64,000 nt of DNA from Erysipelotrichaceae bacterium. Lineage in GTDB: Bacteria > Bacillota_I > Bacilli_A > Erysipelotrichales > Erysipelotrichaceae. The stretch covers positions 62,001 through 126,000 of the forward strand of contig JAFRIE010000033.1 in NCBI GenBank assembly GCA_017432885.1. Reading direction: 5' to 3'. The position numbers and the translations under genes are program-made. This document shows, piece by piece, positions 2,121-22,712 of this stretch. Under the pieces are notes generated by a model. It saw nothing but the letters and a program-made list of their open reading frames with translations, ran no database searches and was not told the origin of the DNA. Every line of letters begins with the position of its first letter. The stretch's first letter is position 1.

Positions 2121-3252
2121 GGAAAAACTGGCTGCCCTCAATCTGGCAAACATGAACGCACAACAGAAGCACTCGTTGCTTCGTATGGCCGTTTCAATTG
2201 CGATCGGTCTGGGACTGGCAACGCTGCTGATCCTTTTGACAAGCGACAAGCCGATGGATTCGCTGCGTTATTACTTTACCGCTCCGTTACAGAACGCCAG
2301 CTATTTCAGCTACTGGGTACAGAAGACCATACCGCTGATCTTTACCGGAACAGCCGTATGTATCATGTTCTCGGCAAACCAGTTCAACCTGGGTCTGGAA
2401 GGCTCGTTCCTGTTCGGCGGTCTGGTCGCTGCCGTGATCAACATCTATATAACCCCGTTTAATCCTGCGTTAGGCATTCCTCTTTCGCTGGTGGCGGGTG
2501 CTCTGGTTGGAGCGCTGATCACTTTCATACCGGCCCTGCTGGACAGACTGTTCAATGCATCGGTCATGGTTACATCACTGATGATGAACTACATCTGTCT
2601 GTGGTTCTCGACCTATCTGCTTTTCTCGCATCTGAAAGACCCGAGAAGCTCGAAGAACTCCTACAACTGGGCGGAAAAAGATCCGATCATGGTTCTGAAG
2701 TTCGGCAAAGGGAACCAGCAGCTTACGATCTACTTCTCTATTCTGATCGCGCTGCTTGTCGTCGTCCTGGCCTGGTTCTTCCTGTATCGCACGAAGACCG
2801 GTTATAAGCTGCGTACTGTCGGTGTTAACCACAACTTCGCAAGATACGTCGGTATCAATGCGGTATCCATCGCGATCGTCGTTCAGCTGATTGGCGGTGC
2901 CATCGGCGGAATCGGCGGTGCCTGCGAGATCATGTCCAACTATATCAACTATTCCTGGGTCGACCTGACCGGTTTCGGCTGGGATGGCGTCACGATTGCC
3001 ATTTTCGCGAAAAACAACCCGAAGAATGTACCGCTGGCAGCGATCTTCATTGCCTTCCTGAGAACCGGAGCCATGGTCATGTCCTACAAGACCAACATTC
3101 AGAACGACCTGACATCGGTAATCGAAGGTGTCGTTATTCTCTTCCTGCTGGCAGAAAAGTTCCTGTCCAAGACTTATCGTAAGATGATCGTCAAAGAGAC
3201 CGAAGAAAACAGAAGGCTGGAAGCGGAGATGCAGAAGAAGGAGGCGAACTAA
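2113..3252 (+). CDS. Nucleoside ABC transporter permease, first subunit
   Basis: This is a polytopic membrane protein of the BPD_transp_2 family (YufP-like), about 379 residues with roughly nine to ten hydrophobic segments. I chose ATG 2113 because GGAGGT at 2100-2105 is spaced seven bases upstream; an in-frame GTG at 2104 would sit inside that ribosome binding site. The start overlaps the end of the ATPase gene, which points to translational coupling. The C-terminal tail after about residue 345 is charged (REETEENRR-like) and cytoplasmic. Together with the next gene it should form the heterodimeric channel for nucleosides. Confidence 0.9.
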   Translation: MLKEKLAALNLANMNAQQKHSLLRMAVSIAIGLGLATLLILLTSDKPMDSLRYYFTAPLQNASYFSYWVQKTIPLIFTGTAVCIMFSANQFNLGLEGSFLFGGLVAAVINIYITPFNPALGIPLSLVAGALVGALITFIPALLDRLFNASVMVTSLMMNYICLWFSTYLLFSHLKDPRSSKNSYNWAEKDPIMVLKFGKGNQQLTIYFSILIALLVVVLAWFFLYRTKTGYKLRTVGVNHNFARYVGINAVSIAIVVQLIGGAIGGIGGACEIMSNYINYSWVDLTGFGWDGVTIAIFAKNNPKNVPLAAIFIAFLRTGAMVMSYKTNIQNDLTSVIEGVVILFLLAEKFLSKTYRKMIVKETEENRRLEAEMQKKEAN

Positions 3253-3255
3253 GGT

Positions 3256-4239
3256 ATGTTTGAATCATTCGTACAAATACTGACTAATCCGAATTTCTAT
3301 TCAAATGTCGTAGCGGTAACTCCTCCGATCCTGCTGGCAGCACTTGGGTGTGCCGTAGCGGAAAAATCCAATTCCACCAATATGGGTATGGAAGGCATCA
3401 TGCTGATATCGTCACTGACAGGCGTTCTGGCCTCCTACTATATCGGCCACAACAACCCTTGGCTGGAGCTTGTTGTCGCCATTCTGGTTGGTGGACTGCT
3501 GGGCTATCTGGTCGCTTTCTTTGCCTTGAAACTTCGAGTCGATATCATTCTGGTCGGCATTGCGATGAACCTGCTGGGTTCCGGCGGAACAGCCTTCTTC
3601 ATGTATGTGTTCACGGGTGACAGAAGCTCGACGAACTCTTTACAGACGGGCACACTGCCGCAGATCAACATCCCGTTTATTCAGGATATTCCTGTTTTGG
3701 GAAAGATCTTATCCGGACAGAACGTCCTGACTTATGTCTCATATGTCATGATCTTTGTCCTGTCTTATCTTGTCTTTAAAACCAAGCTCGGTGTCAGGAT
3801 CAGGGCTGTTGGCGAGAATGCGAACGCTGCCGAATCTGTCGGTATTTCATCTGTCAGGATCCGGACCATCGCTCTGATCATTTCCGGAATGCTGGGAGGT
3901 ATGGCCGGTGCCTTCATGTCATCCGCCTATGTCTCCTACTTTGCCAAGGATATCACTGCCGGTCGTGGCTTTATCGGTCTGGCTGCCTGTTCCATGGGCG
4001 GTGCAAACCCGGTCCCTACCGCATTAACTTCGATTCTCTTTGGTTTCTTCTACGCGCTGTCCAACTTTGCGCGAAACACGGGAATCTCCGACAACCTGAT
4101 CAAGATGTGGCCTTACATGGCGACGATCGTCGGTGTTGTCATCTATTCGATCAAGAAGACCAACGATGAAAAGAAGAGACTGGCAGGCGAAGCCGGTGAA
4201 ATCGTCAAGAAAGAACACAGACATTCGGAATTACATTAA
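3256..4239 (+). CDS. Nucleoside ABC transporter permease, second subunit
   Basis: This 327-residue polytopic protein of the same permease family is YufQ-like. It begins three bases after the previous stop, with GGAGG at 3239-3243. The sequence shows alternating hydrophobic helices and the conserved family segment around VGENANAAESVGIS, the cytoplasmic loop that contacts the ATPase. It pairs with the preceding permease. The cluster order (binding protein, ATPase, permease, permease) is the canonical one for BMP-type nucleoside importers in Bacillota. Confidence 0.9.
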   Translation: MFESFVQILTNPNFYSNVVAVTPPILLAALGCAVAEKSNSTNMGMEGIMLISSLTGVLASYYIGHNNPWLELVVAILVGGLLGYLVAFFALKLRVDIILVGIAMNLLGSGGTAFFMYVFTGDRSSTNSLQTGTLPQINIPFIQDIPVLGKILSGQNVLTYVSYVMIFVLSYLVFKTKLGVRIRAVGENANAAESVGISSVRIRTIALIISGMLGGMAGAFMSSAYVSYFAKDITAGRGFIGLAACSMGGANPVPTALTSILFGFFYALSNFARNTGISDNLIKMWPYMATIVGVVIYSIKKTNDEKKRLAGEAGEIVKKEHRHSELH

Positions 4240-5304: not shown

Positions 5305-5330
5305 AAAAGCACCCGATCGGGTGCTTTTTT
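5305..5330. terminator. Bidirectional intrinsic terminator
   Basis: A perfect inverted repeat, AAAAGCACCC-GATC-GGGTGCTTTT, lies between the converging nucleoside hydrolase and sigma-factor genes. Its A-rich and T-rich ends allow it to act on both strands. Confidence 0.85.
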
Positions 5331-6564
5331 ACAGAATGTATTCCGTGATGCAGTCGTACCAGTGCATACACTCTTCGCCGTTGACGATCAGCTTTTCGTT
5401 TCCTTGCAGTTTTGTCTCGTCTGCCGATTCGAATCCGTCAAAGAGCCAGCGCCGGTTCTTCCGGTTGAAGCGCCTCCATAGAACGGTATGTCCGCTTCTG
5501 TCAATGTACTGTTCACTGACGGTATATTCATCGTAGGTGCAGACATCCATCAGACAGACGGTGTCATAAGTTTTTCCGTTGATGGTGACATCGTATCTTC
5601 CCACAAGATCCATGACTTCTTCTCCATCGGCGGTCGTGATGATATTACCGCTTCTTTTGATCAGTCCCTTCTGCTTCAGATGCGTCTCGTTGCCGATGTT
5701 GTCCGGACCGAAGCCCCAGTTGTTCAGAAAGACGTTCCCATCCAGAAAGGTATAGTATTTCATTACACCGTCTTCTTCGTGCCGTTCCGCCAGGTAGCGG
5801 CAGTGTGTTTCGGTAAGCTGGGCAATGAAATGCCTCTTGATCTTTTTTCTGTCATAAGACTCGATCGCTTCGACGGTAACACCCTGCAGTCCGTGGATCT
5901 CGGCTTTCCCCTTGCAGCGAAGCTCATAGGTCTCACTTCTTTTTCTTTCCGGAAAATCGTAGATCGCCCAGGCGATCCGGTTTCCTTCTTTCGGGATCAG
6001 GAACCAGCCCATCAGTTCTTCCCATAAGGTTTCAAACGGTTTTTCGTTTTTTTCTGTAATCGTATATTCCGGCATGATTTCCGGCAGTTTCTTGTTCATG
6101 GTTTCCTCCTTCGGATATCTTTCTTTAAAGTGTTTTCTGGCATAGTACAGGCGGCTCTTGACCGTGCCTTCCGGCAGCTTCAGTCTTGCGGAGATCTCCT
6201 TCAGGGAAAACTCGTCCCAATAGAAGAGATACAGGATCTGTCTGTCAGAAAGCGACAAAGAACGTAGTGTTTCTCTTACCGTATCGTCTATCGTCCGGTG
6301 GATAGACACCACGGGGATATCTTCTTCCAGAGGAACGGAAATATCCCTGGCTGCAGTCCGGTAGTAGTCGTTCACTTTGTTTCTGGCAATAGCCAGGATC
6401 CAGGCTTTGAAAGCTTCTTCGCTTTTTAGGCTATCGAAGTTTTCATAGGCGTTCAGATAGATCTCCTGCAGCAGATCTTCCCGGTCCGAAACCAAAGATA
6501 CCTTATACTTCACATAAGCCTCGACGTTGCTTCGGTACTTTTCCAGCAGTTCTTCAAAATGCAT
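5329..6564 (-). CDS. ECF-type sigma factor fused to an unknown C-terminal domain
   Basis: The 411-residue protein has two parts. Residues 1-155 are a complete ECF sigma factor: region 2 (DLLQEIYLNAYENF to ARNKVNDYY, about 10-75) and region 4 (LSLSDRQILYLFYWDEFSLKEISARL to EGTVKSRLYYARK, about 100-150). Residues 156-411 form a soluble, Trp- and Tyr-rich domain that I do not recognise; no transmembrane helix or zinc-finger anti-sigma motif is visible. The junction is exactly at an internal Met-156 preceded by AAGGAGG, so the C-terminal domain may also be made alone. Transcription diverges from the M16 protease gene. The domain could be a sensor or an inhibitor in cis; both are inference. Confidence 0.85.
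   Translation of the reverse strand: MHFEELLEKYRSNVEAYVKYKVSLVSDREDLLQEIYLNAYENFDSLKSEEAFKAWILAIARNKVNDYYRTAARDISVPLEEDIPVVSIHRTIDDTVRETLRSLSLSDRQILYLFYWDEFSLKEISARLKLPEGTVKSRLYYARKHFKERYPKEETMNKKLPEIMPEYTITEKNEKPFETLWEELMGWFLIPKEGNRIAWAIYDFPERKRSETYELRCKGKAEIHGLQGVTVEAIESYDRKKIKRHFIAQLTETHCRYLAERHEEDGVMKYYTFLDGNVFLNNWGFGPDNIGNETHLKQKGLIKRSGNIITTADGEEVMDLVGRYDVTINGKTYDTVCLMDVCTYDEYTVSEQYIDRSGHTVLWRRFNRKNRRWLFDGFESADETKLQGNEKLIVNGEECMHWYDCITEYIL
6097..6111 (-). promoter_or_regulatory. Internal Shine-Dalgarno and start codon inside the sigma-factor gene
   Basis: On the minus strand AAGGAGG (6111-6105) is followed by five bases and an in-frame ATG at 6099-6097. That is a near-ideal translation start at codon 156, the boundary between the sigma domain and the C-terminal domain. 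It would yield a separate product of 256 residues. Confidence 0.7.
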
Positions 6565-6637
6565 GTCAGATATCCTTCACCTATAAAGTCGTCATTAAGG
6601 ATGAAAAGGTTCAATCAACTTTAATATAAATCTATCA

Positions 6638-21224: not shown

Positions 21225-21982
21225 ATAGACCAATACTTGAACTGATCGATGTCAACAAGGCTTTCGGCGGTGTTGTCGTCGCTGAACATGTCAATCTGAA
21301 ACTGTATCCGGGAGAGATCCACGGACTGATCGGACCTAACGGTGCCGGAAAGACGACGCTGCTTAATCTGATTTCAGGTATCTATGAAATGGATAGCGGA
21401 CGCATTGAATTGAACGGTGAGGATATCTCGAATATGCCGGCTTATCTTAGAGCCAGAAAAGGTATTGGCAGAACATTCCAGATGCCGCGCTTTCTGGACA
21501 AGGCAGACATTGAGGAAAACATCCGCATTGCCGATGACCTGGCCAATCCGGTATCTTTCCTGAAATCGTATTTCGGAAAGAACGACCGGGCCTATGTACC
21601 TAGACTCAATGAACTGACCAGGATCGCCGGTTTTTCCTTTAACCTTGAAGACGACATCTCCAGCCTGACCTTCGGACAGAGGAAGATGCTGGAAATCATC
21701 CGGGCGATACTGGCAAACCACAAGGTGCTTCTGGTAGATGAGCCTGCCGCAGGACTGAACGGAGCCGAGATCGAGAACGAGATCAGCCTGCTGAAGCATG
21801 CGGCAAAGAATATGAACATGGGCATCCTGCTCATAGAACACTCAATGGATATGATCATGAACATCTGCAGCAATATTACAGTCATCAACTTCGGTTCTGT
21901 CATCGGAAACGGAACTCCTGATGAAATCGCCGCAAATCAGGATGTCATTGAAGCATACCTGGGAAGGAGTAAAGATGCTTAA
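21221..21982 (+). CDS. Liv-type ABC transporter ATP-binding protein (LivG-like)
   Basis: The 253-residue ABC ATPase has Walker A GPNGAGKTT near residue 33, the LivG-specific FQMPRFL segment after the Q-loop, the signature LTFGQRKMLEI and Walker B VLLVDEPAAGLN. The signature is LTFGQ rather than LSGGQ, as is common in LivG proteins. It overlaps the next ATPase gene start by eight bases. The two ATPases should act as a heterodimer driving the LivH/LivM channel. Confidence 0.92.
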   Translation: MNRPILELIDVNKAFGGVVVAEHVNLKLYPGEIHGLIGPNGAGKTTLLNLISGIYEMDSGRIELNGEDISNMPAYLRARKGIGRTFQMPRFLDKADIEENIRIADDLANPVSFLKSYFGKNDRAYVPRLNELTRIAGFSFNLEDDISSLTFGQRKMLEIIRAILANHKVLLVDEPAAGLNGAEIENEISLLKHAAKNMNMGILLIEHSMDMIMNICSNITVINFGSVIGNGTPDEIAANQDVIEAYLGRSKDA

Positions 21983-22712
21983 GATACAAGATCTTAAAGT
22001 CCGTTACGGTTCGATAGAAGCCGTCAAGGGTGTGAACATTGAAGTGAAGGACGATGCTATCGTCTGCCTGATCGGCTCCAACGGTGCCGGCAAGACCTCG
22101 ATCCTGAAGGCAATATCCGGCGTGGTGGAGCATTCCGGTCTGATCGAATACAACGGCGAGGACATCAGTTCCGCCAGCAACATTCATATCGCTAAACTGG
22201 GAATACAGCATGTTCCGGAAGGACGGCAGGTTTTCCCGGGACTGACGGTCTTCGAAAATCTGGAGATCGGCTGTGTCAACTGGCGCGGCTATTTCGGTAA
22301 AGCCGATCACAAAGAGGAACTGGAATATGTTTATTCGATGTTCCCTCGTCTCAAGGAGAGAGAAAAACAGCTTGCCTGGTCTCTTTCCGGAGGTGAACAG
22401 CAGATGCTGGCGATTGGCAGAGCGCTGATGGGAAGACCAAAGCTTCTGCTTCTGGATGAACCTTCCATGGGTCTGGCTCCGCTGGTAATTGAGGAACTGT
22501 TCCAAAAGATTACGGAAATCAACAAAAAGACCGGCCTGCCGATCCTGATGGTTGAACAGAACGCCAGAATGGCCCTGTCCGTTTCAGATTACACGTATAT
22601 CATTGAACAGGGTCAGATCTCTATGGAAGGAGCTTCTGCAGACCTGATTCACGATGACAGAGTCGAAGCGGCGTATTTTGGAAAGAGCTGGAAAGTAAAG
22701 AAAGAGGTATGA
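21975..22712 (+). CDS. Liv-type ABC transporter ATP-binding protein (LivF-like)
   Basis: The 245-residue ABC ATPase starts at ATG 21975 behind GGAAGGAG; a longer frame upstream is only the overlap with the previous gene. Walker A is GSNGAGKTS, the signature WSLSGGEQQMLAIGRAL and Walker B LLLLDEPSMGLAP, all as in LivF. It is the last transporter subunit, and the aldolase gene follows after one base, placing transport and catabolism in one transcript. Confidence 0.92.
   Translation: MLKIQDLKVRYGSIEAVKGVNIEVKDDAIVCLIGSNGAGKTSILKAISGVVEHSGLIEYNGEDISSASNIHIAKLGIQHVPEGRQVFPGLTVFENLEIGCVNWRGYFGKADHKEELEYVYSMFPRLKEREKQLAWSLSGGEQQMLAIGRALMGRPKLLLLDEPSMGLAPLVIEELFQKITEINKKTGLPILMVEQNARMALSVSDYTYIIEQGQISMEGASADLIHDDRVEAAYFGKSWKVKKEV

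Follow-up and report, generated by a model that had tools for sequence, protein, structure and literature searches.

A conserved internal start in an ECF sigma factor gene of Erysipelotrichaceae and Clostridia, and its possible place in a self-regulating two-product gene

The gene and its surroundings

The window, a stretch of 64,000 nucleotides from an Erysipelotrichaceae bacterium (contig JAFRIE010000033.1, positions 62,001 to 126,000), carries on its reverse strand a gene whose product is, by its domain matches, an ECF sigma factor with a C-terminal extension (Table 1). Only Sigma70 regions 2 and 4 (PF04542 and PF08281) were found in the sigma part, which spans about 154 residues, and the 411-residue protein scores 72.6 bits against the sigma70-ECF superfamily model TIGR02937 (cut-off 42.9). 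The remaining 256 residues gave no match in Pfam or NCBIfam, and a sequence search of the PDB returned no convincing relative. The original prediction had placed an AAGGAGG and an ATG at codon 156 of this reading frame, and both are present as claimed: AAGGAGG, AAACC and ATG follow one another, in frame with the 256-residue remainder.

Table 1. Position of the features at the sigma factor locus, in window coordinates.
Feature	Position	Strand	Remarks
Two-product gene (predicted): ECF sigma factor (codons 1-154) plus C-terminal domain	5329..6564	-	411 aa + stop
Sigma part	6103..6564	-	Sigma70 region 2 (aa 6-73), E 4.8e-11; region 4 (aa 96-145), E 6.3e-12
Internal Shine-Dalgarno, AAGGAGG	6105..6111	-	-11.0 kcal/mol
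Internal start codon, ATG	6097..6099	-	codon 156; 5 nt 3' of AAGGAGG
Predicted second product, free C-terminal domain	5329..6099	-	256 aa, beta-rich, LolA/YmcC/RseB-like model
Primary Shine-Dalgarno, AAGGA	6573..6577	-	-6.3 kcal/mol
ECF-type promoter, TGAACCTTT-N13-CGACTTTA	6584..6613	-	-35 at 6613-6605, -10 at 6591-6584
Intrinsic terminator	5305..5328	-	adjoins the stop codon

The gene appears to stand by itself. A terminator lies 3' of it both in the window and at many of the other loci. No operon partner or anti-sigma gene is conserved beside it, the largest cluster of shared neighbours comprising 6 of the loci described below. By its layout the gene is monocistronic. No Rfam element was detected in the gene region, and a simple scan found no internal promoter of the sigma-70 type for a short product.

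Conservation of the internal start

The strength of Shine-Dalgarno (SD) sequences was computed with ViennaRNA as duplexes with CACCUCCUU. Among 376 in-frame internal ATGs of the window, just 2 have an SD of -11 kcal/mol or lower. The codon-156 site is unusual in the window, yet taken as a lone sequence it is weak evidence, and the question of an internal start was therefore decided by conservation. Another strong internal SD-ATG (TCCGGAGGTGAACAGCAGATG) occurs at codon 162 of the gene at 21921-22709 on the forward strand, probably as a by-product of the ABC-transporter signature SGGEQQM.

We assembled 88 loci from Erysipelotrichaceae and Clostridia, with domain identities down to about 51%, from a genome scan (168 domain relatives, 80 kept) and a survey of Clostridia. 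The reading frame runs uninterrupted through the junction in 87 of them, the exception being L023, a domain without a sigma factor, and a complete sigma part precedes the junction save at contig ends or where the sigma frame is damaged. Every locus has a start codon at the junction (86 ATG, 1 GTG and 1 TTG), so that the methionine is swapped only for GTG in L037 and TTG in L084. An SD of -6 kcal/mol or lower precedes this codon in 82 loci (93%), as compared to 13.6% of the 566 further in-frame ATGs that these genes contain; it is weak or absent in L023, L032, L035, L036, L049 and L073. The distance from GGAG to the start is 5-9 nt in 78 of the 88 loci. Moreover, less pairing is found at the internal site than at other places in the gene (unpaired 0.55 versus 0.45). 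The linker between two reference positions varies from 10 to 35 residues across the loci, and in several lineages (L022, L024-L026 and L034) start and SD shift jointly relative to the domain.

Ribosome pausing at internal SD-like sequences has been reported, and the present site lies exactly at a domain boundary, where a programmed pause might aid co-translational folding in place of initiation. A pause requires neither a start codon nor a set spacing, however, whereas here the former is kept at every site and the latter at most of them; the joint movement of SD and start and the open structure of the site also speak against a pause, which we regard as very improbable.

We then asked what selection acts on at the junction, by recoding 34 representatives (domains less than 80% identical) synonymously with each gene's own codon use. 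The mean junction SD was -8.27 in the observed sequences and -5.78 (sd 0.41) in the synonymous null, of which none of 2000 draws attained the observed strength (z -6.2), whereas the same test on a control conserved methionine (WEELMGW) gave a z of +0.24. Codon choice pointed the same way. In the clostridial representatives, the lysine of the site is AAA in 22/22 and the glycine GGA in 22/23, as compared to 26% and 22% at the remaining conserved Lys and Gly positions; the third codon invariably begins with G, whereas the residue it encodes may be E, D, V or A. The Erysipelotrichaceae write the site in another phase, AAG GAG GAA (KEE), with GAG in 14/14, and L046 and L082 retain the SD with MEID and MEV peptides. 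The proposal that the SD is a by-product of codon usage was rejected, since both the synonymous null and the codon choice at the site contradict it. The sequence could also have been kept for protein reasons, a K-G/E-E-x-x-M peptide serving as linker or protease site with the SD as its by-product, and KGE or KEE is indeed found at the site in most members. However, the synonymous choice is far from that at conserved Lys, Gly and Glu codons elsewhere, and the peptide varies where the SD is constant, which, with the rejected null, leaves this explanation with hardly any probability. Because the null was never exceeded, the Lys and Gly codons are biased and differing peptides keep the SD, selection at the junction is, on this comparative evidence, directed at the nucleotides and not at the peptide.

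All together, conservation of SD and start, the synonymous null and codon choice give strong comparative support to the original prediction of two products from one gene. It is very likely that the internal start is functional and that the gene yields both a full-length fusion and the domain alone.

The C-terminal domain and the age of the fusion

None of 29 domain members matched a Pfam family. The domain modelled alone from 29 sequences reached a pTM of 0.86 and a pLDDT of 85. Its top Foldseek match was 3fzx (E 9.6e-4), with which VIA-align gave a moderate Z of 8.5 (4.3 A, 149 residues aligned); other structures scored below 8 (4fvs 7.9, RseB 6.8, MucB 6.6 and several LolA, LppX and LprG structures about 5). 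The model thus resembles LolA/YmcC/RseB folds; the match is moderate, and a shared fold is no proof of function. This likeness suggests binding of a hydrophobic ligand. MucB is described as a lipid-responsive regulator in an envelope sigma system (PMC7400510). The predicted fold is similar to those of RseB, MucB and other LolA/YmcC-like proteins, without detectable sequence similarity to any of them; unlike these proteins, which are exported, the present domain is predicted to be cytoplasmic and is fused to the sigma factor. Three of its cysteines, C100, C182 and C250, are invariant or nearly so, and a metal or redox site is possible.

A distant homologue of the domain is found in another family of Bacilli, in three proteins (L090, L091 and L218) where an XRE helix-turn-helix head replaces the sigma factor. 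The XRE-fused and sigma-fused domains are homologous over their whole length (hhalign E 1.6e-16), and each stands behind a DNA-binding head; in contrast to the sigma fusions, an internal SD is not seen where head and domain meet in L090 and L091. Since it occurs behind either head, the domain appears to be a module that serves as effector domain in transcription regulators.

We also considered how old the fusion may be. Sigma distances and domain distances are correlated (r 0.79, reached in 0 of 2000 permutations) and the fusion is present in two classes; for both reasons it is, as far as the phylogenetic spread goes, old. The suggestion that a sigma gene and its regulator gene had recently been joined does not agree with these data, and the split two-gene versions that had been anticipated among relatives were found neither among the 88 loci nor in genome surveys. 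Nearest to a split version come L023, where the domain without sigma factor (2890-3783) lies 3' of a Fic-like gene, and L050 and L068, where the sigma frame is broken by a frameshift or an in-frame stop and the domain and internal start are intact. The latter two could be assembly errors or natural genes for the short product only.

The gene was found in 5 of 35 other genomes of the same genus, and its distribution is patchy, with repeated loss. Decayed remnants are seen in Clostridia genomes (L107, L108 and L112), and one member (L042) belongs to the cultured species Acetatifactor muris. Searches of plasmids, phages and viral contigs gave no match.

The promoter and a possible one-gene circuit

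The region 5' of the gene carries a conserved motif, TGAACCTTT-N13-CGWCTWTA, which scored at least 13/17 in 83 of the 86 loci examined, 44 of them with the full 17/17. It shows the features of ECF-type autoregulatory promoters (TGAAC ... CGTC, 16-nt spacing). A conserved promoter of this type suggests autoregulation, and there is a high probability that the sigma factor recognises the promoter of its own gene. Just 3' of the -10, clostridial loci (for example L071, L087, L036 and L070) have a perfect palindrome of 10-14 bp, TGAAACCGGTTTCA, whose position is fixed near the expected +1 and whose symmetric centre is ACCGGT, AGCGCT, ATCGAT or AACGTT. A palindrome of at least 10 nt is present in 79% of 24 representatives and in 2.3% of shuffles; it is possibly an operator.

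Few other candidate targets came to light. The source genome (73% complete) holds one exact promoter match, the gene's own, and with up to 3 mismatches 25 matches, as compared to 32 for the reversed control, so that there is no excess. In 20 other genomes every match with at most 1 mismatch was a gene's own, except for one in G439 (L120) that has no clear gene set behind it, and a looser promoter core gave no clear excess over the control in the 21 genomes; these counts come from a motif search in partly incomplete genomes, which would miss targets with degenerate promoters. Given the own-promoter matches, the terminators and the lack of conserved neighbours, the visible regulon is the sigma factor's own gene; targets with weaker promoters are possible. 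The target promoters of ECF factors can be less strict than the autoregulatory one, and the core search does give matches at background frequency; the sigma factor might thus run a normal multi-gene regulon through highly degenerate promoters, with the fused domain as an ordinary on-board sensor and the short product as a minor one. The lack of any excess over the reversed control in 21 genomes and the strong selection on the internal start argue against such a regulon, which we consider unlikely.

The TipA gene is autoregulated and its short product, TipAS, sequesters the drug. We propose that the present gene is a self-contained, autoregulated two-product gene of the same logic, built on a sigma factor, and we favour this as the best explanation with some confidence. 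The first product would be the sigma factor with its C-terminal ligand-sensing domain, the second the domain alone, translated from the internal ribosome-binding site. Binding of a ligand, which, given the LolA/RseB-like model of the domain, is probably hydrophobic, would switch on the sigma factor, which would transcribe essentially its own gene. From the internal start of this mRNA a surplus of free domain would be made, which would capture or neutralise the ligand and reset the switch. We infer that both proteins accumulate. All 14 Erysipelotrichaceae loci have a stronger SD at the internal start than at the primary one (-11.2 versus -5.5), which predicts an excess of the free domain; the prediction is confined to this family because in Clostridia the primary SD mostly equals or exceeds the internal SD in strength. 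By analogy to TipAS, the chance that the free domain senses and sequesters the ligand seems to us about even.

In Streptomyces lividans, TipA gives two products, TipAL and TipAS, of which the short form predominates (PMC7762955). The likeness would lie in a single gene, probably autoregulated here as well, with two in-frame starts and a predicted short product that is the C-terminal effector domain alone. In contrast to the TipA class, of the MerR family, the head is here an ECF sigma factor and not a MerR helix-turn-helix, and the C-terminal domain, unlike TipAS, is rich in beta structure and resembles LolA. Membership of the TipA class was rejected, as neither the MerR helix-turn-helix nor the TipAS domain (PF07739) was matched in Pfam.

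Among ECF sigma factors, ECF41 (SnoaL), ECF42 (TPR), ECF238/CorE and ECF56 likewise combine a sigma2-sigma4 core and a C-terminal extension without an adjoining anti-sigma gene; the present proteins differ from them by a larger, different domain (256 aa), the conserved internal start and a sole target found, their own gene. Assignment to ECF41 or ECF56, with their SnoaL extension, was also rejected: the 29 members have no SnoaL match in Pfam, and the fold matches of the domain model are LolA/YmcC-like. Excerpts of ECF reviews do not mention an internal start in C-terminally extended ECF sigma factors, and no sigma factor whose gene has an internal start turned up among the open-licence papers searched.

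Internal in-frame starts that give a free C-terminal part are found in phage endolysins (PMC9430671). There, as in Cas11, an internal ribosome-binding site gives rise to a free C-terminal domain; those are enzymes or interference complexes, whereas the present gene would encode a transcription factor controlling its own expression. The free C-terminal parts of phage endolysins assemble with the full-length protein (PMC9430671), and the C-terminal extensions of ECF41 are described as inhibiting through contact with the sigma linker (PMC8999054). By extension, the free domain could be a regulatory subunit that forms hetero-oligomers with the fusion, or acts on it in trans as anti-sigma or co-sigma factor, the ratio of the products setting activity. 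This is the main rival to the TipA-like circuit, and we think it rather unlikely: it leaves unexplained a sigma factor that has no recognisable target except itself, and the full-length fusion model (pTM 0.60) shows no confident arrangement between the domains. The original prediction was that the free domain may titrate or modulate the fusion; a TipAL/TipAS-type circuit, with the free domain as its output, agrees better with the data.

Sigma factors normally activate many genes. One whose sole visible target is its own gene, and whose mRNA also encodes a free sensor-like domain, would be, if the TipA-like reading is true, a minimal sense-and-respond cassette, and the logic of TipA would have evolved again from unrelated parts. 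The domain would add a C-terminal family that is absent from Pfam, and current annotations would miss such in-frame second products. More tentatively, and at slightly less than even chances in our judgement, gut Firmicutes may contain widespread one-gene regulons, where the ECF sigma factor has its own gene as sole target and the mRNA also encodes, from an embedded start, an effector responding to the stimulus: a counterpart of TipA, convergent in its logic and assembled from unrelated parts and a new family of ligand-binding domains.
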